From positions 1 through 10,339 of the forward strand of contig NZ_JADEXF010000039.1 of assembly GCF_015207245.1 (NCBI RefSeq): 10,339 bases of DNA, written 5' to 3'. Of this stretch, positions 1 to 10,339 are shown piece after piece (position 1 is the stretch's first letter; each line of letters starts with the position of its first letter). A model generated the notes under the pieces. That model worked only from the letters and a program-made list of their open reading frames with translations, was not told the DNA's origin and did not search any database. A program made the position numbers and the translations under genes. The stretch is from Nostoc cf. edaphicum LEGE 07299 (GTDB lineage Bacteria > Cyanobacteriota > Cyanobacteriia > Cyanobacteriales > Nostocaceae).

Positions 1-1197
1 ATGCTTCTGTGGATTGGGCAACTGGTGTCCCAGTTAGCAGATAAAGTTTTCTTCGTTTTAATGATTGCTCTGCTGGAGAACTACTCACCGCTTCCTGGGT
101 TGGCACAAAACTCAATGTACTCAACCTTGATGCTGTCCTTTACAATACCAGCAATTTTGTTTGGCTCTGCTGGTGGTATCTTTGTTGACCGTTTGCCAAA
201 AAAGCTGATTATGATTGGTTCAGACATTGTGCGGGGAATACTAACGCTGTGTCTTCCTTTCTTACCACGAGAGTTCCTGATTCTATTAATCTTGACTTTT
301 GCCATTTCCTCAGTGACGCAGTTTTTTGCACCGGCTGAACAAGCAGCCATTCCCTTGTTGGTGAAGCGAGAAAATTTGTTGGCAGCCAATGCGCTGTTTA
401 GCAGCACCATGATGGGAGCTTTAATTGTTGGCTTTGCGATCGGTGAGCCGATTCTGAGTTTGTCAAAAAGCTTGATGGGAGAACAATACGGTCAAGAGCT
501 TGTAGTTGGTGGACTATACATATTATCGGCTGCGATCATGCAGCCAATTAAGTTTAAAGAACACAAACCCCACCAAGAACATCAAGCATCAAATAACCCT
601 TGGGCTGAATTCACTGAGAGCCTGCGGTATCTCAAGAAAAACCGTTTGATATTGAATGCCATGCTGCAACTGACAACTTTATATTGTGTGTTTGCAGCCT
701 TAACGGTGTTGACAATTCAATTAGCCGAGGAGTTTGGCCTTAAAGAAAAACAGTTTGGCTTTTTCTTAGCAGCAGCAGGGGTAGGTATGGTCTTTGGCGC
801 GGCGATTTTAGGTCATTGGGGTGATAAATTGCATCACAAGCCTCTACCTTTAATTGGATTTTTGATAATAGCACTAGTTTTAGGGGTGTTCACTTTTACA
901 CATAACTTGTTGCTAGCGCTAACACTCTGTGGATTTTTAGGTGTAGGCGCTTCCTTAATTGGTGTTCCTATGCAAACTTTAATTCAACAGCAAACACCGC
1001 CTACCATGCATGGTAAAGTATTTGGCTTTCAAAATCATGCCGTTAATATCGCTCTGGCGTTACCTCTGGCCATTACTGGGCCATTAACTGATGCTCTGGG
1101 CTTGCGAACTGTGCTGGTAGCAATGAGTATTGTTGTCGTAGTTGTCGGTGTTTGGGCTTGGAAAAATACTCGCAGAGTCTTGCAAGACGTAATTTAA
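1..1197 (+). CDS. MFS transporter (MFS_3/EntS-like type), probably 5'-truncated by the window edge
   Basis: Integral membrane protein of the major facilitator superfamily, expected in the cytoplasmic membrane as a proton-driven exporter; the substrate cannot be read from sequence. The visible 398 residues contain roughly eleven hydrophobic segments. A motif-A loop lies after the second one (GGIFVDRLPKK, residues 58-68) and a weaker copy in the second half (GHWGDKLHHK, 271-280). A hydrophilic central loop (about 184-210, rich in His, Lys and Glu) separates the halves. The frame is open from base 1 and the protein begins almost directly inside the first helix (LLWIGQLVSQLADK), whereas relatives usually have a cytoplasmic N-terminus before it. 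Met1 is therefore probably internal and the real start lies upstream. The gene ends 132 bp before ilvB on the same strand. The call as MFS is secure; drug, siderophore or metabolite export cannot be separated. Confidence 0.9.
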   Translation: MLLWIGQLVSQLADKVFFVLMIALLENYSPLPGLAQNSMYSTLMLSFTIPAILFGSAGGIFVDRLPKKLIMIGSDIVRGILTLCLPFLPREFLILLILTFAISSVTQFFAPAEQAAIPLLVKRENLLAANALFSSTMMGALIVGFAIGEPILSLSKSLMGEQYGQELVVGGLYILSAAIMQPIKFKEHKPHQEHQASNNPWAEFTESLRYLKKNRLILNAMLQLTTLYCVFAALTVLTIQLAEEFGLKEKQFGFFLAAAGVGMVFGAAILGHWGDKLHHKPLPLIGFLIIALVLGVFTFTHNLLLALTLCGFLGVGASLIGVPMQTLIQQQTPPTMHGKVFGFQNHAVNIALALPLAITGPLTDALGLRTVLVAMSIVVVVVGVWAWKNTRRVLQDVI

Positions 1198-1317
1198 TTA
1201 ATGTAGGCTAATAGTCTAGCTTTATATTTAATATAAGAATTAATAAGATTTTGATTGAAGTTTTCAATTAAAATGAAATCTTAAATACAGAATCCAGCAT
1301 TAACTTTAGCTATAGTC

Positions 1318-1332
1318 TGAGGTTTGACCGTG
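1318..1332 (+). promoter_or_regulatory. Shine-Dalgarno and GTG start of ilvB
   Basis: TGAGG at 1318-1322 is complementary to the 16S 3' end and lies 7 nt before GTG 1330. A possible TTG start at 1324 would have only 1 nt of spacing, so the GTG is preferred. This shortens the longest open frame by two residues. The choice rests on spacing only. Confidence 0.6.
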
Positions 1333-3243
1333 CGTTCACGAAGTGTCTCCGCAGGAGAATCGCTCTCCCAAATCAGTCTCCCACAAACCGAGAATCACAA
1401 ACAGTCTCGTGCTTCTAGCCCGCCAGCCTTGCCCAAACGAGCATCTGGCGGTTTTGCTCTGCTTGACAGCCTTCATCGCCACGGCGTTGATTATATTTTT
1501 GGTTATCCCGGTGGGGCAATTCTACCAATTTACGACGACCTGTATAAGGTGGAAGCAACTGGTGCTATGAAGCACATTCTCGTGAGGCACGAACAGGGTG
1601 CAGCCCACGCTGCTGATGGTTACGCCCGTGCCACAGGAAAAGTAGGAGTCTGCTTTGGTACTTCGGGACCAGGAGCAACTAATTTGGTGACAGGCATCGC
1701 CACAGCCTACATGGATTCAATCCCGATGATTGTGGTTACAGGACAGGTAGCACGTCCGTCGATTGGTACAGATGCGTTTCAAGAAACCGATATTTACGGA
1801 ATTACGCTCCCAATCGTCAAGCACTCCTATGTGGTGCGTGACCCTAAAGATATGGCGCGAATTGTCGCCGAAGCCTTCCACATCGCTAGCACTGGGCGTC
1901 CGGGGCCAGTTTTGATTGATGTCCCCAAGGATGTAGCTTTAGAAGAATTTGACTATGTACCTGTAAAACCAGGTTCAGTGAAGTTACGCGGTTATCGTCC
2001 CACTGTGAAGGGAAATCCCCGGCAGATTAATGCCGCGATCCAGTTGATTACTGAAAGCCGCCGTCCGCTATTGTATGTGGGTGGTGGTGCGATCGCAGCG
2101 GGTGCCCATGAAGAAATCAAACAACTAGCTGAATTATTCGATATCCCTGTCACCACAACCTTAATGGGGATCGGTGCATTTGACGAACATCATCCCCTAG
2201 CTTTGGGAATGTTGGGGATGCACGGCACTGCTTACGCTAACTTTGCCGTTAGTGATTGTGACTTGCTGATTTGCGTTGGCGCTAGATTTGATGATCGCGT
2301 TACAGGCAAGTTAGACGAATTCGCCTCCCGCGCTAAAGTAATTCACATCGACATCGATCCCGCAGAAGTCGGCAAAAACCGCATTCCCGAAGTGCCCATT
2401 GTCGGCGATGTGCGGAATGTGTTAGTAGACTTATTGCGTCGCTGCAAAGAAATAGGGGTAAAGGCTACACCTAATCAAAACCAAGAATGGCTAAATCTAG
2501 TTAACCGTTGGCGCGAAGAGTATCCCCTAATCGTGCCGCATCATCTCGACAGCATTTCACCCCAAGAAGTGATTGTAGAAGTCAATAGCCAAGCACCTCA
2601 CGCTTTCTACACCACAGATGTCGGACAACATCAAATGTGGGCAGCACAATTCCTGAAGAATGGCCCAAGGCGCTGGATTTCTAGCGCTGGTTTGGGAACG
2701 ATGGGTTTTGGCTTACCTGCGGCAATGGGCGCTAAAGTAGCGTTTCCTGATGAAGAAGTCATTTGTATCAGCGGTGATGCTAGTTTCCAAATGTGTTTGC
2801 AAGAACTTGGTACGCTTGCACAGTATGGGATAAATGTCAAGACAATAATTCTTAACAACGGCTGGCAAGGGATGGTGCGCCAGTGGCAGCAAGCCTTCTA
2901 TGGTGAGCGTTACTCATGCTCCGACATGGAAATAGGGATGCCAGACGTAGAGTTGTTGGGAAAAGCTTATGGCATTAAAGGCATGATAATCAGCGATCGC
3001 AGTCAATTAAAAGATGCGATCGCTGAAATGCTGGCACACAAAGGGCCAGTAATCTTAAATGTCCACGTCACCAGAGACGAAAACTGCTATCCAATGGTAG
3101 CCCCTGGTAAGAGCAACGCTCAAATGGTCGGCTTGCAGAAACAACCGCCAAAAGCAGCAGCCGAGCCAGTGTATTGTAGCAACTGCAATGCCAAAAATGC
3201 TCCTACCCACAACTTCTGTGCTGAGTGTGGGACGAAGCTGTAA
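1330..3243 (+). CDS. ilvB: Acetolactate synthase (acetohydroxyacid synthase) large, catalytic subunit
   Basis: Thiamine-diphosphate enzyme that condenses two pyruvates to 2-acetolactate, or pyruvate with 2-oxobutyrate, opening valine, leucine and isoleucine synthesis in the cytosol; it normally pairs with a small regulatory subunit IlvN, absent here. Numbered from the TTG at 1324: N-terminal ThDP domain with the PGG loop (62-64) and catalytic Glu90 ([20 protein letters not shown]); central FAD domain with [10 protein letters not shown] (321-330); C-terminal ThDP domain with the GDASFQM...NN cofactor motif (484-512) and Trp521 in VRQWQQ. No in-frame ATG precedes the conserved part. GTG at 1330 is chosen because TGAGG at 1318-1322 sits 7 nt before it; the TTG at 1324 has no usable spacing. 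Two oddities: a Ser/Pro-rich N-terminal extension of about 40 residues, and a C-terminal tail with two CxxC pairs (C618/C621, C632/C635), as in a zinc ribbon, joined by a Pro/Ala linker. Family length without these is about 550-600 residues; this product is 637. Confidence 0.96.
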
Positions 3244-3271
3244 CGCTTTTTGATAATTCAAAACCAAAGAG

Positions 3272-3335
3272 GTAGGGGAGCAAGGAGAAGGGGAGAAAGA
3301 TGTAGGAATATCCCCCTAATTCCTGCCCCCTTTAC
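3272..3335 (+). repeat. Imperfect inverted repeat downstream of ilvB
   Basis: GTAGGGGAGCAAGGA (3272-3286) can pair with TCCTGCCCCCTTTAC (3321-3335) with a few mismatches or bulges, around a purine-rich interior. It begins about 30 bp after the ilvB stop and could end ilvB transcription, although no clean T-run follows directly (TTTAC closes the arm). GGGGAG-type purine tracts are common between Nostoc genes, so it may be only an intergenic repeat. Confidence 0.35.
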
Positions 3336-3388
3336 TCTTGCGTAGGTGTTGCTTAATCTTGCAGATTAGGTTGAGGTAAAAAGATATT

Positions 3389-3492
3389 TTATAAGTAATT
3401 TACTAAATCGCTTTGACTGTTGAAATCTAACAGCGCCTCAGCTAACTCTTCTAGTTGAGTAATCATGATGTGCGAATCTGCTGTTCTATCCT
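3389..3492 (-). pseudogene. Frameshifted C-terminal remnant of a DUF4351/Rpn-family (PD-(D/E)XK transposase-like) gene
   Basis: Reading the minus strand from 3466 gives a 25-residue open frame containing QLEELAEALLDF followed by SDLVNYL and a stop at 3389-3391. This matches, from memory, the C-terminal DUF4351 signature of the Rpn-like nuclease/transposase family that is abundant in filamentous cyanobacteria (pattern ...QLE.LGEALLDF....DL..WL). The residues normally just before it appear in another frame immediately upstream (IEQQIRTS, about 3466-3489), so a one-base change breaks the frame. Nothing recognisable of the N-terminal nuclease domain is present. It is read as a dead gene fragment; family assignment is moderately sure because only about 33 residues are available. 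Confidence 0.5.
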
Positions 3493-3585
3493 TGGTTCTC
3501 AATTGCAGCAAAAATTAATTGTTGTCTGTCTTATCTAATAGGAATGGGTTGTAGTTTAAGAATGTCTACAGCTAAACTCAAATCG

Positions 3586-3645
3586 AGCAAACCTAAATCA
3601 TTTGTGAAAAATAAGAACTCCGACTTGGTTGAAAAGTCGGGTTTC
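3586..3645 (-). repeat. Nostoc-type dispersed palindromic repeat (CCGACTT hairpin)
   Basis: CCGACTT (3620-3626) and AAGTCGG (3634-3640) form a perfect 7-bp stem with a 7-nt loop. On the minus strand it is followed by a stretch including CACAAATGATTTAGG. Both the hairpin and this flank resemble a short repeat I recall as common between genes of Nostoc and Anabaena. The stem is directly visible; membership in a repeat family is from memory. The minus frame through it is open but reads as repeat rather than as a protein. Confidence 0.5.
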
Positions 3646-3689
3646 TGTGGATTTATATTCTCAATATTTACTTAATATATTCAGACTTA

Positions 3690-3712
3690 GTGTATATTGC
3701 TGAAATATACAC
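3690..3712. repeat. Perfect 9-bp stem-loop
   Basis: GTGTATATT (3690-3698) is followed, after the 5-nt loop GCTGA, by its exact reverse complement AATATACAC (3704-3712). No T-run follows on either strand, so it is not an ordinary terminator. No gene is adjacent; the function is unknown. Confidence 0.5.
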
Positions 3713-3871
3713 GCATTGATTAACTAAAACTACTTTATCAAACTTAGGTTTTATTAAAAATTCATATACTTTTTGCTTTAGTTAGTTAAATATGCGAGTT
3801 AGAGTTGATTTTATATAAATCAGTTTTGTCAAAAAGTTCAGTAACATTCCTCTTTTATTAACAAGTTAAAT

Positions 3872-3897
3872 ATCACTAGAATATTAATGGTAGTGAT
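3872..3897. repeat. 7-bp inverted repeat ATCACTA/TAGTGAT
   Basis: ATCACTA (3872-3878) and TAGTGAT (3891-3897) are perfect inverted copies separated by 12 bases. The layout would suit either a hairpin or a dyad for a DNA-binding protein. No promoter or gene is clearly attached to it. Confidence 0.35.
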
Positions 3898-3986
3898 GGC
3901 TTAGTTGATTAAGAAAACGTCAATTATTCCAGGTGTATCTATTTCTAACTCTCTTTCAGGCAGATTCAGGAGTCTTAAAATAACCG

Positions 3987-4038
3987 CTCTCTTTCTTTTA
4001 CAAAAGAGAGTTTAGCTTCCCCTTGATTGAGGGAGGTT
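3987..4038. repeat. Tandem double hairpin (CTCTCTTT and CTTCCC stems)
   Basis: First hairpin: CTCTCTTT (3987-3994) pairs with AAAGAGAG (4003-4010), perfect 8 bp with an 8-nt loop, followed by TTTAG. Second hairpin: AGCTTCCC (4014-4021) pairs with GGGAGGTT (4031-4038) using two wobble pairs. The CTCTCT...AGAGAG module also occurs in the terminator at 4575-4601. The pair resembles a repeat/terminator family I remember from Nostoc genomes (a GAGAGG hairpin followed by a CTTCCC hairpin). No gene ends here on either strand. Confidence 0.45.
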
Positions 4039-4087
4039 AGATTCTTGTTAGCGAATTAATGTACTAAGCATTAATAGTCTATTCATT

Positions 4088-4137
4088 TAGAAATCGCTGT
4101 GTTCAAGTTTTCTTGGGCAACAGCGTCATGATTTCTA
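4088..4137 (+). ncRNA. Possible structured RNA or repeat: three-step stem-loop
   Basis: Three nested complementary segments line up in one 50-nt hairpin: TAGAAAT (4088-4094) with ATTTCTA (4131-4137), CGCTGT (4095-4100) with ACAGCG (4120-4125), and CAAG (4104-4107) with CTTG (4112-4115) around a TTTT loop. That gives 17 Watson-Crick pairs, a 5-nt bulge (TCATG) and a small internal loop. It lies about 90 bp before the small secreted-protein ORF. It might be a leader structure, a small RNA or a mobile palindromic repeat; no known family is recognised and the strand is a guess. Confidence 0.3.
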
Positions 4138-4224
4138 TTGGAAAATTGCACTTTTATTTATAACTGAGAACAAACACAACTTCTTTAAGCTTTGAATATT
4201 TATCAACCCATTTTACCAATCCCC

Positions 4225-4539
4225 ATGCAACAATATATTTCTCATTTGCTCATACTGGTATTAGGAACAAGTTCAACTTTCCTCGTTACTCCATCTCAAG
4301 CTCAAACTCCGGTAAAAACCAACAGTCAAAATTCTGAAAATGTTACTTCCATATCTTCAAATTCACCTTCGGCTACCCAATTGAGTGATTTTGCTAATTC
4401 TACTAATAGTAAACCACCTCTTTTTTTTGAGGCAGCTAATAACTCTTCTGTTCCTAATGCCAATAGAACAGCAAATAAGCCTCGTACACGGCTTCCTATA
4501 TTCAGCAGAATTTTTCCTACGCCTTCAATGCAGCAATAA
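4225..4539 (+). CDS. Small secreted Ser/Asn/Thr-rich protein of unknown function
   Basis: A 104-residue protein with a plausible Sec signal peptide: hydrophobic core at about residues 8-20 (LLILVLGTSSTFL) and a probable cleavage after PSQA or PSQAQ near residues 26-27. The mature part (about 78 residues) is low in complexity, rich in Ser, Asn, Thr and Pro, without cysteines or a recognised domain, and ends in a basic stretch (KPRTRLPIFSRIF). It is therefore likely exported and disordered. ATG 4225 is used; the frame is open back to a TTG at 4192, which would place 11 polar residues before the signal peptide. No good ribosome binding site precedes either start. A strong terminator-like hairpin follows 35 bp after the stop, supporting a real single-gene unit. 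It is not recognised as a known family. Its neighbour mysD has its own promoter-like sequence, so a functional link is not implied. Confidence 0.55.
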   Translation: MQQYISHLLILVLGTSSTFLVTPSQAQTPVKTNSQNSENVTSISSNSPSATQLSDFANSTNSKPPLFFEAANNSSVPNANRTANKPRTRLPIFSRIFPTPSMQQ

Positions 4540-4574
4540 TTATTTGCATTCGTACAAGAGGTCTAATATACTTT

Positions 4575-4603
4575 AACCTCTCTCCTAAAAGAAGAGAGGT
4601 TTT
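4575..4603 (+). terminator. Terminator-like hairpin after the small secreted-protein gene
   Basis: AACCTCTCT (4575-4583) and AGAGAGGTT (4593-4601) form a perfect 9-bp stem with a 9-nt loop, followed by a short T-run (TTTT at 4600-4603, partly in the stem). It is placed correctly to end transcription of the upstream ORF and insulate the ligase gene. The T-run is short, and the same CTCTCT/AGAGAG module appears at 3987-4010. Confidence 0.6.
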
Positions 4604-4655
4604 GAATGTTACTCCCCAACGCTTATAGGAAAGTACTGTTTTTGTTAGATATATA

Positions 4656-4684
4656 TTGGACTCAACTGAGAACCGCTATATAAA
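4656..4684 (+). promoter_or_regulatory. Putative sigma-70-type promoter of the MysD-like ligase gene
   Basis: TTGGAC (4656-4661) and TATAAA (4679-4684) are separated by 17 bp. Transcription from about 4691 would leave a leader of roughly 20 nt with the Shine-Dalgarno AGGAAG (4699-4704), 7 nt before ATG 4712. The -10/-35 match is good, but in AT-rich DNA such matches also arise by chance. Confidence 0.45.
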
Positions 4685-4711
4685 TTCTAATACTACATAG
4701 GAAGATAAATC

Positions 4712-5764
4712 ATGCCAGTACTTCGTATCCTTCATTTAGTTGGGTCTGCATACAATAATTTTTACTGTGATTTATCACGCCTTTACGCCCAAGACTGTCT
4801 TGCAGCAACGGCAGATCGATCGCACTATGAATTTCAGATTGCATACATCACACCCGATCGCCAATGGCGATTTCCTGCTTCCCTCAGCCAAGAAGATATT
4901 GCTGATACCAAACCGATGACTCTGTTTGCTGCCATAGAGTTTATAACAGCGCAAAACATTGACCTTGTGTTACCACAAATGTTTTGTATTCCTGGAATGA
5001 CTCACTACCGCGCCCTATTCGACCTGCTGAAGATCCCTTATGTCGGCAATACTTCAGAGATCATGGCGATCGCAGCGCACAAAGGCAGAACCAAAGCAAT
5101 TGTTGAAGCCGCAGGGGTAAAAGTGCCTCGTGGAGAACTGCTTCGCCAAGGAGACGTTCCGACAATTACACCTCCAGCGATCGTCAAACCCGTAAGTTCC
5201 GATAACTCTTTAGGGATAGCCTTAGTCAAAGAGGCTACTGAATATGACGCTGCTTTGAAGCAAGCATTTGAATATGCTTCGGAGGTCATTGTAGAAGAAT
5301 TTATCGAACTCGGTCGAGAAGTCAGATGCGGCATCATTGTCAAAGATGGGGAACTAGTGGGTTTACCTCTTGAAGAGTATCTGTTAGACCCTCACTCCAA
5401 ACCCATCCGCAACCATGCAGATAAACTCCAACAAACGGACGATGGCAACTTGCGTTTCGCCGCTAAAGATAACAAGAAGTCTTGGATTGTAGACCCTAAC
5501 GATCCGATTACCCAAAAGGTTCAGCAAGTAGCTAAGAAGTGTCATCAGGCTTTGGGTTGTCGTCATTACAGTTTATTTGACTTCCGCATCGACCCAAAGG
5601 GAGAACCTTGGTTCTTAGAAGCCGGATTGTATTGTTCTTTTGCCCCCAAAAGTGTGATTTCCTCTATGGCAAAAGCAGCCGGAATGCCTCTAAATGAGTT
5701 ATTAATCACAGCTATCAATGAAACTTTGGGCAGTAATCAAAAGGTGTTGCAAAATTGCTCGTGA
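4712..5764 (+). CDS. mysD: MysD-like ATP-grasp ligase (D-Ala-D-Ala ligase homologue) of mycosporine-like amino acid synthesis
   Basis: Predicted cytosolic ATP-dependent ligase. MysD enzymes join an amino acid (Ser, Thr, Gly and others) to mycosporine-glycine, giving disubstituted MAA sunscreens such as shinorine or porphyra-334. The 350 residues follow the D-Ala-D-Ala ligase layout: N-terminal Rossmann-like domain (about 1-115), central ATP-grasp domain with Lys159 in IVKPVSSDNSLG and EEFIELGREVRCG (195-207), then the metal-binding end FDFRIDPKGEPWFLEAG (289-305). True Ddl enzymes have E-x-N in the last motif; here it is EAGLYCSF, which I associate with MysD-type proteins and not with peptidoglycan synthesis. 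Start, RVRILHLVG-like opening (actual: PVLRILHLVGSA) and end resemble Nostoc MysD proteins as I remember them. The start has a good Shine-Dalgarno. The usual partners mysA, mysB and mysC are not adjacent: upstream is noncoding DNA plus a small ORF, and the next gene converges from the other strand. Confidence 0.8.
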   Translation: MPVLRILHLVGSAYNNFYCDLSRLYAQDCLAATADRSHYEFQIAYITPDRQWRFPASLSQEDIADTKPMTLFAAIEFITAQNIDLVLPQMFCIPGMTHYRALFDLLKIPYVGNTSEIMAIAAHKGRTKAIVEAAGVKVPRGELLRQGDVPTITPPAIVKPVSSDNSLGIALVKEATEYDAALKQAFEYASEVIVEEFIELGREVRCGIIVKDGELVGLPLEEYLLDPHSKPIRNHADKLQQTDDGNLRFAAKDNKKSWIVDPNDPITQKVQQVAKKCHQALGCRHYSLFDFRIDPKGEPWFLEAGLYCSFAPKSVISSMAKAAGMPLNELLITAINETLGSNQKVLQNCS

Positions 5765-5805
5765 ATTTATCGCTATAGGTTTTTCTGCTTGTAGTGGGTA
5801 GGAGA

Positions 5806-5830
5806 GCGATCGCTAATTAAGTGCGATCGC
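5806..5830. repeat. Twin HIP1 octamers between convergent genes
   Basis: Two copies of GCGATCGC lie at 5806-5813 and 5823-5830, only 9 bp apart, in the spacer between mysD and the glycosyltransferase gene. HIP1 is a frequent cyanobacterial palindrome; most copies elsewhere in this window are inside genes. Confidence 0.7.
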
Positions 5831-5872
5831 TTTACCAACACCTGCCGTAGGATACCCAAATGACTGTAGGAC

Positions 5873-5892
5873 AAACCTTTTAAAAGGTTTTT
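5873..5892. terminator. Bidirectional terminator between mysD and the glycosyltransferase gene
   Basis: A perfect 18-bp palindrome (5873-5890: AAACCTTTT then AAAAGGTTT) folds as a 7-bp stem with a TTAA loop. T-runs follow it on the + strand (5888-5892), and its A-rich left arm gives T's on the minus strand. It lies 108 bp after the mysD stop and 26 bp beyond the glycosyltransferase stop, as expected for a shared terminator of convergent genes. Confidence 0.6.
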
Positions 5893-5916
5893 AATTCCTA
5901 GTTAGTGGTTGTTAAA

Positions 5917-7179
5917 TTAATGCGTAACTATTTCCTCGAAGAGGGATAAGTAACGAGATGCTTGTAACTCGATCGCAAATTCTTGTTCGGCTTTCTCACG
6001 AGCGCGATCGCGAAGTTTTTGATGCCGTTCTTTATCTTCTATTACCCAGATAATACCATTTGCTAAGTCATCATAACTAAAACATTGCGCTCGATATCCA
6101 TTTTTTTGATGTTCAACTATATCTTTGAGTCCCGTTGAATCAAAAGAAACCACAGGTGTACCGCAGGACAAGGATTCACAAGCAGTCAGTCCATAAGCTT
6201 CTTCAATTGAGGGCACAATCATCACATCCGAAGATGCATACAAAAGCGCTAGTTTATTCTCATCATCAACTTTGCCTAAGTAATGCACCTTAAAACCTAA
6301 ATCAACTGGATCTTGAGGTTGAGATGAACCAAAAACAATCAGTTCAATCTGATCTTTCCACTCAGACTGGTTCAATTTTTGTAATGCTGATTGCAATAGA
6401 TCAAATCCTTTTCTGAAATTGCTAGTTGCGTTGATTGCTCCGAATAGAATTAGTTGCTTATTTTGCGGGAGGCTCAGTAAGTTTCTGGCTACTTGACTCT
6501 TTGTTGGTTTATAAATGCTGAGGTCTAAGCCGTGAGGAATAACTCTGATGTCACTATTTTCAAATAGTGAACTGGATTTAGCACATTCAGCAAGCCAATT
6601 ACTAGGAGTGACAATAGTAAGCTTGAGATTTTGCCATGCTTTAATTTTACGTTGCCAAACCCAGCGAGATAAATCCCAGCTTTGCTTGCTACCGAGTTGA
6701 GGGCAATTTCCACAATATTTTGTATAGCGATCGCACCCTAGAGAATAGCAGCATCCACCTGTGAATGCCCACATATCATGAAATGTCCAAACAATGGGCT
6801 TATTGAATTTTGCCAGTGCTTCAATTGGTATAAATCCGTCACATATCCAATGCAGGTTAATGATGTCTGGCTCAAGTTTAGCAATTTGCGATGTAACTGT
6901 ATTAGGGAGCCATTGCAGCCGGAAAAATGTAGGGTTACGTTGCCTATTTTTATAAAGTTTTACTGGTAAATCATTTAAAATCGGATGAGCTTTCCAGATT
7001 GTTTTGCCTAACTTATTGGGAGAACTAATTAGAGTAGAGTCAGCTATTCTTTTATCTTGAATTAGCATCTGAGAATCAATTTCTAACCTCAGTAGTTCCT
7101 GATGTAGCCGATAAGCAGCACGAGCAGCTCCCGCTCCTCCCTTGGGATCATAAGTGTTAACCAATAGAGGCTTAATCAT
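5917..7179 (-). CDS. GT4-family (GT-B fold) glycosyltransferase
   Basis: A 420-residue retaining glycosyltransferase predicted to use a nucleotide-sugar donor in the cytosol or at the inner membrane face. N-terminal acceptor domain: GGAGAARAAYRLHQ (14-27) and TFHDMWAFTGGC (132-143) with His134. This is followed by a Cys cluster (C143, C144, C149, C156, C159, in a CCYSLGC...CGNCPQL pattern) typical of one GT4 subgroup acting on surface polysaccharides and possibly metal-binding. C-terminal donor domain: IPHGLDL (214-220), a glycine/lysine site near SNFRKGFD (253-260), and the E-x7-E motif Glu327/Glu335 in EAYGLTACE, followed by SCGTPVV. The length is normal. It is the last of three minus-strand genes, 120 bp after the PhyH-type oxygenase, and converges on mysD. 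Proximity makes it a candidate to glycosylate a mycosporine-like amino acid; homology alone would suggest exopolysaccharide or another glycan. Start ATG 7179 gives a complete N-terminus but has no clear Shine-Dalgarno. Confidence 0.88.
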   Translation of the reverse strand: MIKPLLVNTYDPKGGAGAARAAYRLHQELLRLEIDSQMLIQDKRIADSTLISSPNKLGKTIWKAHPILNDLPVKLYKNRQRNPTFFRLQWLPNTVTSQIAKLEPDIINLHWICDGFIPIEALAKFNKPIVWTFHDMWAFTGGCCYSLGCDRYTKYCGNCPQLGSKQSWDLSRWVWQRKIKAWQNLKLTIVTPSNWLAECAKSSSLFENSDIRVIPHGLDLSIYKPTKSQVARNLLSLPQNKQLILFGAINATSNFRKGFDLLQSALQKLNQSEWKDQIELIVFGSSQPQDPVDLGFKVHYLGKVDDENKLALLYASSDVMIVPSIEEAYGLTACESLSCGTPVVSFDSTGLKDIVEHQKNGYRAQCFSYDDLANGIIWVIEDKERHQKLRDRAREKAEQEFAIELQASRYLSLFEEIVTH

Positions 7180-7299
7180 TGTTAATTTAATTATTTATTC
7201 ACTAACAGAAAGTTTAAGGCTACCAAAACACGATCCGCAGATGGTTAAATATTAGTACAAATCATCTTCCAATTCGATCAAATTATTCATTTGTAGCAA

Positions 7300-8103
7300 T
7301 TAGTGATGCAGTTCAACTCTCGGAAATATATCGCAGTCTATCGGCTCACCAGGTTTTTTGGCTTTGAATGAATTCAATTCTGGTAGATCAATTTCTTCAA
7401 CAGGTCTGAAAGGCCATGCTTTCGGGCGATGATAGTAAGTAATATCATCGCCAGTCCAATTCGTGACTACCGCACGTCGTTGTGTAGAAGATATGTTGGT
7501 TACTGAATGATGAATTGTCAGAAAATGATGAACCAAGCAATCTCCAGGCTCCATATCCCAAGATAAAATTTCTTGCGGTTCTGGCTCTACAAACCAAGAG
7601 GGGTTTGATCCTTCACGTAACTCTTTGCCCCATCGATGAGAGGCTTTGATATACTCTAATCGACCATTTTCTTGGTTGACACTATCTAAAGCCAGCCAAA
7701 TCTTACAACACTGCCAGCCTTGTATCGGCCAGTAAGGTAGGTCGTTATGCCACCCAACACGGCTGTTTGTTTTCGGCTTTTTAACAAAGAAACCGTCAGT
7801 CAAAAAGTTGAGTTTTTCTGATTTCAAGACTTGAGCGGCGAGCGTGGCTAGCGGAGATTCAAAAGCTAAAGCACGGAAATCAGCATCAGTAAGCCATAAG
7901 CTACTGCTATGTTCCACATGACCGTTTGATTTGGGGATGCCTTTAACTTCCAATGGGCCAGGGATTAATGCATTCTTGTCAACTGCTGTTCGCATCCGTT
8001 CTACCCAAATGTCATCCAAAACATTTTTGACGCAGATAACACCGTCTCGCTGGAAAGCTTCAACTTGTTGGCTGGTAATTTTTGATCTGTCTACCTTAAG
8101 CAT
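7300..8103 (-). CDS. PhyH (phytanoyl-CoA dioxygenase) family Fe(II)/2-oxoglutarate oxygenase; MysH candidate
   Basis: A 267-residue soluble non-heme iron oxygenase that should couple 2-oxoglutarate decarboxylation to substrate oxidation. The facial triad is visible: His119 and Asp121 in GWHNDLPYW, and the distal His198 in TIHHSVTN. Arg209 lies 11 residues after His198, the spacing that holds the 2-oxoglutarate carboxylate in PHYH. ENGRLEYIKASHRWG (145-159) and MEPGDCLVHHF (184-194) are typical PhyH core strands. The length is usual for the family and the N-terminus (SKITSQQVEAFQRDGVICV) is a complete PhyH start. MysH, which converts glycine-bearing MAAs to palythines, belongs to this superfamily, and a mysD-like gene lies 1.5 kb away, so MysH is a reasonable candidate. 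I cannot confirm orthology by sequence, and PhyH proteins have many other substrates. It lies between an MFS gene (201 bp upstream) and the glycosyltransferase gene (120 bp downstream), all on the minus strand. No clear Shine-Dalgarno precedes ATG 8103. Confidence 0.85.
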   Translation of the reverse strand: MLKVDRSKITSQQVEAFQRDGVICVKNVLDDIWVERMRTAVDKNALIPGPLEVKGIPKSNGHVEHSSSLWLTDADFRALAFESPLATLAAQVLKSEKLNFLTDGFFVKKPKTNSRVGWHNDLPYWPIQGWQCCKIWLALDSVNQENGRLEYIKASHRWGKELREGSNPSWFVEPEPQEILSWDMEPGDCLVHHFLTIHHSVTNISSTQRRAVVTNWTGDDITYYHRPKAWPFRPVEEIDLPELNSFKAKKPGEPIDCDIFPRVELHH

Positions 8104-8304
8104 TACGAAAAAATGAATAAAGTCAGCTTTATAAAATAACAGATTTCTCTAATCTGCTTGAGCGAATATTAATTTTGTCACTATTTTGGAAATCTTTTTT
8201 AATGTAGAGTAAAGATGTAAGTTAGCAGTTCTTCCTATAGATGGATAAATCTCCAAGTTGAGTACAACTTTTTTTGTTCATATCCGTAACCAAGAAATTT
8301 AATC
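8104..8304. other. Spacer between the MFS and PhyH genes, with two small hairpins
   Basis: AAGTTG (8255-8260), loop AGTA, CAACTT (8265-8270), then five more T's form a terminator-like hairpin, but its T-run serves the + strand, where no gene ends. For the minus-strand MFS gene it is only a hairpin 35 bp past the stop. A second hairpin, CAGATT/AATCTG (8140-8156), lies about 37 nt before the PhyH start, inside its likely leader. Whether the MFS and PhyH genes share a transcript cannot be decided. Confidence 0.4.
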
Positions 8305-9750
8305 CTAACTACCCAAATCTTTTTTAACAATGAGTGGCACAAGTGAAGCTAATCGTAATACACCAGATACAATAAATACTTCTGCTATGCCAAAAGATCC
8401 AGCAAATTGAGCGATGAAGCCACCGATAGTTGCTCCTAAAGCACCACTTGCTCCAGCAACAGCTGCTGCTGTTGCAAAATAGATAGACTGATTTTTTACT
8501 GGTGCAATTTCTATCTGAAGATTGTTGTTACACAAGTCAACTCCTCCCCAATTAGCTCCAATAAAAATGTGTAACAGCGGCAACCATAGCCAGAGATCGA
8601 GAGGACTAGAACCCATCTTCAGCCACAGCCAAGGTATGACTGCAATTAGAATTCCAGTAGAAATTAGAATCGGACGATTGCCTAGTTTATCTGCTAATCT
8701 ACCCCACACGATGAGCATTAGCATGTGTGCCCCTGCTCGCAGGCTATTGTAGAAAGTTACCCAACTCACATCCAAGTTCAGTGTGTCTAGCAGGTAGAGA
8801 TTAAAAAACGGGGCACTCAGATTAACAGCAAATGTCCATGAGCCGAAATAAAGTAGAAACACCAAAAAATTAGAGTTTTTCCAAATGCTATTATCTATCT
8901 TATTTTGAGGAGTTGGCATTTGCGGCAGAGAGATTGGTTCAGATATCTCACCAGGTTCATTTTGTACCGAGTCCGACTGAATCTCACTAGTTTGAGATGA
9001 GTTAGCATAATAAGTATTTTGTAGTTGAGGGTTTATATCAACCTGAAAATACTGACACCCCAAGCTCACAATTCCAAAGATAATGCCTAAGAGCAAAACC
9101 ACCCCATAACCTTGAATAGCTCCCCCGTACCAATGTGATACGGCTAGACCGGCTATTGGTAAACCGACCAACTCGGTTAAGTTGGCAAGGCTATTGCGTA
9201 GCCCGAAATATCTACCTCGTAATTGCCGTGGGACTAACATTGCTATCCAACTCAACCAAGATGCGGCTCCTAGTCCTCCTAAAAAATGGCTGCATACGAG
9301 AATCAAAAGCGACAATATCACTAGTTGATTGGAATTAAGCCCTCCCCAACTAAAGCTAACAATGCCAATTACTAAAATCAGCCATAGTAGCCGACCAATC
9401 CCATGAGTGCGAAGGGAATACTGAAAGCGGCTAGTGCTGCGTTCAGACAAATAAGCACCCATCGGCTGAAAGAGATTCACCAACATGGGGATAGAACTCA
9501 CCATGCCAAATACCACTGGACTGGCATCCAACCCCACCAAGAAATTACCTAGCAAAATTCCGCCAGTACCAATAGAGAAAACTGCTGCGAAAACACCATC
9601 GACAGTAGAGGCGCTCAAACTCCTGCGAATACCATCTTTAGAAATACGAGGGCTGAATGTTGAGGTAGGAGAGAGTGTTGTTGATGGTGAAGCAATCTGA
9701 GCAACTTCTATAGAAAGAGGCGCACCTGTTTCAATTTGAGAAGCATCCAT
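8305..9750 (-). CDS. MFS transporter with a long central loop
   Basis: A 481-residue major facilitator protein of the cytoplasmic membrane with about twelve hydrophobic segments in two halves. The N-terminal 45 residues are hydrophilic and Ser/Thr-rich, predicted cytoplasmic. Motif-A-like loops are MGAYLSERSTSR (97-108) and, clearer, WGRLADKLGNRP (349-360). PRQLRGRYFGLRNSLAN (174-190) is a loop typical of this cyanobacterial MFS group. A polar, Gln/Ser/Pro-rich loop of about 55 residues (236-290) joins the halves, longer than usual. The substrate is unknown. It is first of three minus-strand genes (MFS, PhyH oxygenase, GT4), so export or import of the product they modify is a natural guess, though the 201-bp gap leaves the operon open. 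ATG 9750 has no strong Shine-Dalgarno; a promoter-like sequence lies 50-77 bp upstream. Confidence 0.88.
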   Translation of the reverse strand: MDASQIETGAPLSIEVAQIASPSTTLSPTSTFSPRISKDGIRRSLSASTVDGVFAAVFSIGTGGILLGNFLVGLDASPVVFGMVSSIPMLVNLFQPMGAYLSERSTSRFQYSLRTHGIGRLLWLILVIGIVSFSWGGLNSNQLVILSLLILVCSHFLGGLGAASWLSWIAMLVPRQLRGRYFGLRNSLANLTELVGLPIAGLAVSHWYGGAIQGYGVVLLLGIIFGIVSLGCQYFQVDINPQLQNTYYANSSQTSEIQSDSVQNEPGEISEPISLPQMPTPQNKIDNSIWKNSNFLVFLLYFGSWTFAVNLSAPFFNLYLLDTLNLDVSWVTFYNSLRAGAHMLMLIVWGRLADKLGNRPILISTGILIAVIPWLWLKMGSSPLDLWLWLPLLHIFIGANWGGVDLCNNNLQIEIAPVKNQSIYFATAAAVAGASGALGATIGGFIAQFAGSFGIAEVFIVSGVLRLASLVPLIVKKDLGS

Positions 9751-9827: not shown

Positions 9828-9911
9828 CCGCAGGGATAGTCTGTACGATCATCAGATATTGTGTTTTTCATTTCAAGAGTTGATATACCCGATTTGCCAT
9901 TACGAATCTAT

Positions 9912-10339
9912 CTAATGTTTGTAAACTAAGAAACCCGCGATCGCATCCAAAAGTGCTTCTGGCTCATCTGCGCGGATCAAATGACTGCTATTCTCAAAAA
10001 TTCTCAAATCTGCATTAGGAATTACCTGAGCAATTTCTTCAGAAAATTCTGGAGCGCAAATCCAGTCATGCCGACCTGCAATAACTAAAGTAGGTGCAGT
10101 AATTTTGTGTAGCTGGTCAAGAATATTGTAGTTGCGGAGGAAACCGCCAAAAGCAACATTAATCGCATCAACTGAAAGAATATTCCGCTGCCAAGTAATG
10201 GCTGAGGTGGTGGAGTTATATTTTAGCGAATACATTGATCCCAACACTTGAAAATATTGTCTTAACTGTTCCTCATTTTCAAAATTTCCATCCCAAAGCC
10301 TTTGAGCGCTTGCTTTTTGTTCTTCAGTTCCCTTTGATG
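9912..10339 (-). CDS. Alpha/beta hydrolase, C-terminal part (gene continues past the right edge)
   Basis: The minus-strand frame is open from the window edge to a stop at 9912-9914, giving the last 141 residues. They hold the lid-like segment (LRQYFQVLGSMYSLKYN), the acid strand with the catalytic Asp in VIAGRHDWICAPEFSEEIA, and the catalytic His in ENSSHLIRADEPEALLDAI. This is a normal C-terminus of the alpha/beta hydrolase fold, closest by eye to the proline-iminopeptidase-like (S33) group. The nucleophile elbow (GxSxG) lies outside the window. A shorter reading from a GTG at 10247 would lack half the lid and is not the true start. The gene ends 161 bp before the MFS start on the same strand; the MFS gene appears to have its own promoter. 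The precise substrate is unknown. Confidence 0.85.
   Translation of the reverse strand, partial: SKGTEEQKASAQRLWDGNFENEEQLRQYFQVLGSMYSLKYNSTTSAITWQRNILSVDAINVAFGGFLRNYNILDQLHKITAPTLVIAGRHDWICAPEFSEEIAQVIPNADLRIFENSSHLIRADEPEALLDAIAGFLVYKH

Follow-up and report, generated by a model that had tools for sequence, protein, structure and literature searches.

The window analysed here is one whole contig (C342, 10,339 bases) of a cyanobacterial draft assembly that totals 5.0 Mb in 997 contigs and is 72.7% complete. It encodes an ATP-grasp ligase, a GT4 glycosyltransferase, a PhyH-family oxygenase and an MFS transporter (Table 1), which a reading made from the sequence alone had proposed might ligate, glycosylate, oxidise and export an MAA. 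All four reading frames are open and full length where that reading had placed them, with mysD convergent to the other three, and the four proteins have Pfam matches above cut-off (Dala_Dala_lig_C, Glycos_transf_1/Glyco_transf_4, PhyH and MFS_1). The nearest relative is Nostocales cyanobacterium LEGE 12452, to which the proteins of the MAA-side genes are 93–97% identical. The truncated hydrolase gene at the end of the window is 97% identical to its counterpart in one locus of genome G050 (L111 and L245), and the hydrolase is the MFS-side neighbour in two relatives. Upstream of its MFS gene, at 9896–9899, the window lacks about 0.5 kb that LEGE 12452 has and about 0.4 kb that G050 has. No RNA family reached its gathering score in the window.

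Table 1. Features of the 10,339-base window.
Feature	Position	Strand	Basis or remark
MFS1, ilvB and small ORF, outside the MAA cluster	1–4659	+	co-located in four relatives, not beside mysD
ilvB, acetolactate synthase	1324–3243	+	within left part of window
Small ORF	4192–4539	+	within left part of window
Short repeat, up to about 23 bp, probable false join	4660–4682	+	alignment ends in relatives
mysD, ATP-grasp ligase predicted to add Ser/Thr to mycosporine-glycine	4712–5764	+	PF07478, 80 bits; 350 aa
mysG, GT4 glycosyltransferase, MysG1 orthologue	5917–7179	-	91% to mysG1-position gene; 420 aa
mysH, Fe(II)/2-oxoglutarate oxygenase predicted to make palythines	7300–8103	-	MysH homology, PF05721; 267 aa
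MFS transporter, mys-linked clade MFS-A, candidate glycosylated-MAA exporter	8305–9750	-	PF07690; 481 aa
Alpha/beta hydrolase gene, end only	9912–10337	-	96% to L004:622–1041, beside MFS-A

The oxygenase, which had been assigned to the superfamily of MysH, proves to be MysH itself. It carries the HxD...H and distal Arg that we take to be the Fe(II)/2OG ligand motif of MysH. A solved MysH (PDB 9c9n/9pze) matches it with 538.6 bits over residues 1–266, the next solved relative being SnoK with 42 bits, and the window's WHNDLPYW, TIHHSVTN and QRRA stretches align with 9c9n. The four PDB entries (9c9n, 9ci4, 9pyo and 9pze) represent the same enzyme, aligned over residues 1–266, although their sequences are not identical to the window protein and belong to another MysH. 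We kept 80 of 116 MysH relatives, of which 54 were non-cyanobacterial by title, at most 42% identical and set aside; none of these 54 loci gave a MysD, GT4 or MFS match above 60 bits. One locus (L026 = L242, genome G203) has a 64% identical MysH without another MAA gene nearby, and mysC on another contig.

The ligase is a D-Ala-D-Ala-ligase-like ATP-grasp protein of the type encoded beside mysC in relatives, and is 93% identical to the product of the mysD next to mysABC in LEGE 12452 (L004). In the genome that we take to be Nostoc sp. UHCC 0302 (G214), the gene at the mysD1 position encodes a protein 87% identical to the window MysD and the gene at the mysD2 position one that is 81% identical. 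Because MysD1 is reported to prefer Thr (PMC11378024), palythine-Thr can be offered as a weak guess for the core of the window's product.

The glycosyltransferase can be placed more precisely than its family suggests. G214 carries, in the published order, mysA, mysB, mysC, a Core-2/I-branching glycosyltransferase gene at the mysJ1 position, mysD, a GT4 gene and mysH. The window GT4 is 91% identical over 417 residues to the protein encoded at the mysG1 position and 70% identical to that at the mysG2 position, and the tree unites it with the former in one clade (support 100/99). By these measures of identity and phylogeny, the window GT4 is the orthologue of MysG1. The UHCC 0302 cluster mysABCJ1D1G1H (PMC11378024) thus shares its mysD, mysG (GT4), mysH order with the window (identities 91% for GT4, 87% for MysD and 82% for MysH); it differs in having mysJ1 and in retaining only an MFS remnant beside mysH. 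In 2024, experiments in E. coli were reported in which MysG1 glucosylated palythine-Thr, the glucose sitting on C7 by NMR; when mysG1 was omitted, only MAAs without sugar were obtained (PMC11378024). The earlier remark that no gene was established for the sugar transfer is therefore outdated: such a gene is published, and the window gene is its orthologue.

Not every mysH locus has this enzyme. The sequence-only reading had suggested asking whether the four genes stay together across Nostocales. A full-length GT4 gene is present in 6 of 26 mysH loci, so the four-gene set is not universal. Short GT4 fragments occur beside mysH in L020 (10812–10925), and L116, L119, L120 and L121 contain extra matches to window positions 6657–6769; these fragments are perhaps remnants of a second mysG. 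In four further loci (L172–L175) the GT4 copies are 68–75% identical and group with the mysG2-position gene, and no mysJ match was found in these loci, which span about 1.5 kb on each side.

The transporter belongs to a very common group of proteins, with a match at E 1e-90 or better in 190 of 217 genomes of the family. Its close copies are distributed quite differently from its distant ones. Copies at least 76% identical occur in 26 genomes besides the window's own (the copy in G050 is broken), and in 23 of these 26 no more than 10 kb separates them from mysC, mysD or mysH, the exceptions being G047, G051 and G214. Of copies below 72% identity, only 4 of 53 among the matches listed lie within 10 kb of mys genes, a count for which the 53 copies were taken by hand and the mysC and mysD rows used in part, so that low-identity links may be missed. 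All four belong to one locus type, in genomes G054 and G055, and none of ten further copies below 72% among the matches listed is near mysD. The close copies form a clade, which we call MFS-A, with 100/100 support and 28 rows of a 53-row tree: 23 mys-linked copies, three unlinked ones and two Amazonocrinis-type copies beside a 66% identical MysH. At this Amazonocrinis-type locus (L027 = G054; L240 in G055), the MysH gene is flanked by two MFS copies, the first inside the wider MFS-A clade and the second outside it; the mysC of G055 is about 120 kb distant. By its phylogeny and gene neighbourhood, MFS-A is a clade that split from a widespread MFS paralogue and sits beside mys genes. The claim that only proximity links the window's genes thus fails, as their grouping recurs in relatives and is not due to chance. 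The named loci and the genomes overlap (L004/G030, L007/G018, L027/G054, L026/G203), and these counts are not to be added together.

The exceptions are varied. In G026, G038 and G124, MFS-A lies beside mysC and mysD and no mysH was found (G026 also has mysJ); the broken MFS-A of G050 is linked to mysC and mysD, again with no mysH found. In UHCC 0302 (G214), the MFS gene adjacent to the cluster is a remnant, and a 76% identical copy lies about 0.3 Mb away, while mysJ, mysG and mysH are kept. In NIES-2108, MFS-A, mysH, mysJ and a broken mysD lie beside a gene for an eCIS_core-domain protein (L239, G018:C168), and mysABCD is on L113. Against a strict association, L021 has mysJ and mysH without MFS-A, L270 combines mysJ and mysABCD and shows no transporter within 3 kb, and five genomes with a mysH at least 80% identical lack an MFS-A copy (G065, G068, G069, G094 and G158).

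MAA clusters do not seem to carry transporters as a rule. Among 40 mysC loci, six had a protein with at least seven predicted membrane segments within 3 kb, compared with nine of 40 background windows, and we rejected such a rule. The 40 loci were chosen by hand, and none has an MFS-A copy of 76% or more; two are cut short by contig ends, and one genome, G055, has a copy of the wider MFS-A clade elsewhere. The background consisted of two overlapping 11 kb windows from each of 20 arbitrary regions, and the simple hydropathy count does pick up MFS and MATE proteins. Other transporters occur in individual clusters: Nostoc sp. HK-01 has a different MFS gene, G074 an EamA protein gene near mysC, and two Chroococcales loci (L028 and L029) have mysABCD, mysH, a GT4 gene of the same wider clade and a MATE gene, with no MFS-A. 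Brasilonema MAA clusters are reported as mysABC-methyltransferase-transporter-dioxygenase-mysE (PMC9918943) and, like the cluster in the window, contain a transporter gene alongside one for a dioxygenase; they are of the NRPS type, unlike the window, and the passage describing them names no transporter family.

A narrower association is apparent within mysH clusters. A transporter of the MFS-A or MATE type is present in 16 of 18 loci with MysG or a full-length MysJ-type gene and in 3 of 8 without (p 0.014, for loci that are related and not independent). The 26 loci comprise 24 of the 26 named mysH loci together with UHCC 0302 and HK-01; we excluded L026 and L027, which lack mysABCD, and also L243, which duplicates L009. 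Three of the 18 glycosyltransferase loci have MysJ-type genes that are only 29% like MysJ1, L006 (a MysJ fragment) was scored as without a glycosyltransferase, and L084 (a different MFS) as without a transporter. This is only suggestive that transporters go with mysH clusters holding glycosyltransferase genes, not with MAA clusters generally.

Is MFS-A an exporter? Its conserved linkage to mys genes, as a distinct transporter clade, in 23 of 26 genomes makes it a good candidate for the exporter of glycosylated MAAs. There is, though, a sizeable possibility that it serves another step, such as the supply of sugar or amino acid or the uptake of MAAs, or that it is a passenger. The direction of transport cannot be read from sequence, paralogues are widespread, three of the 26 genomes have the copy unlinked, and NCBIfam gives the window protein weak, generic transporter matches only. 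A PDB sequence search of the protein found only lactose permease (E 0.07), and an AlphaFold2 model built from 41 rows had a mean pLDDT of 56.7, too poor for a fold search. These alternatives fit less well with the tightness of the linkage across relatives and with a clade of its own. Moreover, two clusters that have a related GT4 carry a MATE gene in its place, and the linked copy is broken in G050, where no mysH was found.

The window also appears to lack the first three genes of the pathway. As the sequence-only reading had noted, mysA, mysB and mysC are absent: MysA and MysB gave only chance-level matches in any stretch of the window, as did MysC outside the ligase, bar one 24-residue match (E 0.003). 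The search of the genome for these genes that it had recommended returned no mysC, no mysA and, for mysB, only a 41% partial match plus weaker ones in the 72.7%-complete assembly. Two DHQ synthases of the assembly were considered as MysA and rejected, as both are only 29% identical to it; the one on C640 has tyrA-, DsbA- and trpE-like neighbours.

From this absence a split MAA locus without mysABC had been put forward as possible, which is probably wrong. In LEGE 12452 (L004, genome G030), the hydrolase, MFS, mysH and GT4 genes face mysD, mysC, mysB and mysA, and all are contiguous. The gene directly upstream of mysD is mysC in all nine mysD loci that we fetched from relatives, and mysA and mysB are likewise upstream in eight of them, the ninth ending at a contig end. 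The left part of the window is kept together in four relatives, away from mysD: two of them have it on a different contig from the mysD part, and the others, G050 and G022, on the same contig at distances of about 0.54 Mb and 0.69 Mb respectively. Alignments of the left side stop at window position 4685–4686 in the four relatives; of the nine mysD-side loci, eight start to align at 4660 and one at 4669.

The two sets of alignments meet on a short repeat, ACTCAACTGA[G/T]AACCGCTATA (4660–4682). Its first 21 bases, with up to one mismatch, have seven copies in the assembly and none in the control; the repeat is present in the loci of several relatives, and in LEGE 12452 two copies differ by one base. 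Since mysC adjoins mysD in relatives, the left part lies elsewhere, and the two meet on a short repeat, in an assembly that is 73% complete and broken into 997 contigs, the window is most likely a chimeric contig in which the ilvB and mysD sides were joined at this repeat. This dispersed repeat may give rise to false joins in draft genomes of Nostoc. Neither of the lost arms, mysABC and the sequence following the left part, was found in the 72.7%-complete assembly; the search for the latter gave nothing beyond a 65% match spanning about 0.65 kb. This fits an incomplete draft, yet a deletion as well, and counts against a chimera to that extent.

A genuine split is the unlikely alternative. Recombination at the short repeat would then have relocated or deleted mysABC, leaving the four genes to use mycosporine-glycine from another locus. 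Such arrangements have precedents. The published MAA clusters of Nostoc sp. UHCC 0926 are discontiguous, with genes over several loci as appears to be the case here (PMC10510106), NIES-2108 (L007/L239, G018) has its mysABCD on a different contig from its MFS-A, mysH, mysJ and broken mysD, and the Amazonocrinis-type genomes G054 (= L027) and G055 combine an MFS of the same clade with a 66% identical MysH. The UHCC 0926 clusters come from a complete genome, however, whereas the split in the window is probably an assembly artefact: the junction is shaped like a join made by a short-word assembler, the missing arms fit a completeness of 73%, and all nine loci fetched from relatives keep mysC upstream of mysD. 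An MAA locus that looks split in a draft genome should be checked for a false join.

Polysaccharide loci commonly encode GT4 enzymes. That the GT4, PhyH and MFS genes form an exopolysaccharide pathway lying near mysD by chance is nevertheless highly improbable and largely refuted by sequence already: relatives of the GT4 occur in 134 of 217 genomes of the family (mostly 51–60% identical among the matches listed) and a double role for MysG1 in EPS is suggested by the very paper that describes it (PMC11378024), but the window's PhyH protein is MysH, its GT4 is 91% identical to the protein at the MysG1 position, and the copies at least 86% identical in six relatives all lie within 1.5 kb of mysH.

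We are fairly confident that the window holds the downstream half of a glycosylated palythine-type cluster, in which mysABCD faces mysG-mysH-MFS, with putative export by the MFS protein and a probable chimeric join in place of mysABC. The proposal of ligation, oxidation and glycosylation of an MAA was sound, being upheld by the identity of MysH, by a GT4 orthologous to MysG1 and by the recurrence of the genes in relatives. By homology to characterised enzymes, MysD would join Ser or Thr to mycosporine-glycine, MysH would trim the glycine to give a palythine and MysG would add glucose; the MFS protein would move the glycosylated palythine from the cytoplasm towards the sheath. The absence of mysABC would most likely reflect a contig join at 4660–4682 in an incomplete assembly rather than a true split. 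A more specific version, which we hold to be evenly balanced, is that MFS-A arose by duplication of a widespread cyanobacterial MFS gene as a dedicated exporter of glycosylated palythines and that Chroococcales MAA clusters with a related GT4 independently acquired a MATE protein to do the same.

Much of this is already published, namely the cluster type, MysH, MysG and discontiguous MAA clusters; the mys-linked MFS transporter clade is new here. In the open-access papers searched, a scope that leaves out Chen 2021 on MysH, we recognised no description of an MFS exporter in mys clusters. The main text of the UHCC 0302 MysG1 paper (PMC11378024) contains none of the words transport, export and MFS, and that of PMC10510106 does not contain the word transport.

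The organism may also make a second sunscreen. Genes resembling aroB (for a DHQ synthase), dsbA, tyrA and trpE lie together elsewhere in the assembly (L002, G000:C640), an arrangement that we take to be part of a scytonemin cluster. With this gene group, the organism of the window may make both an MAA and scytonemin.

For studies of how Nostoc places glycosylated sunscreens in the sheath, a transporter clade tied to MAA clusters that bear glycosyltransferase genes provides one gene to delete or express. If MFS-A and MATE proteins do export glycosylated palythines, glycosylation would serve as the label that sends an MAA out into the extracellular matrix.
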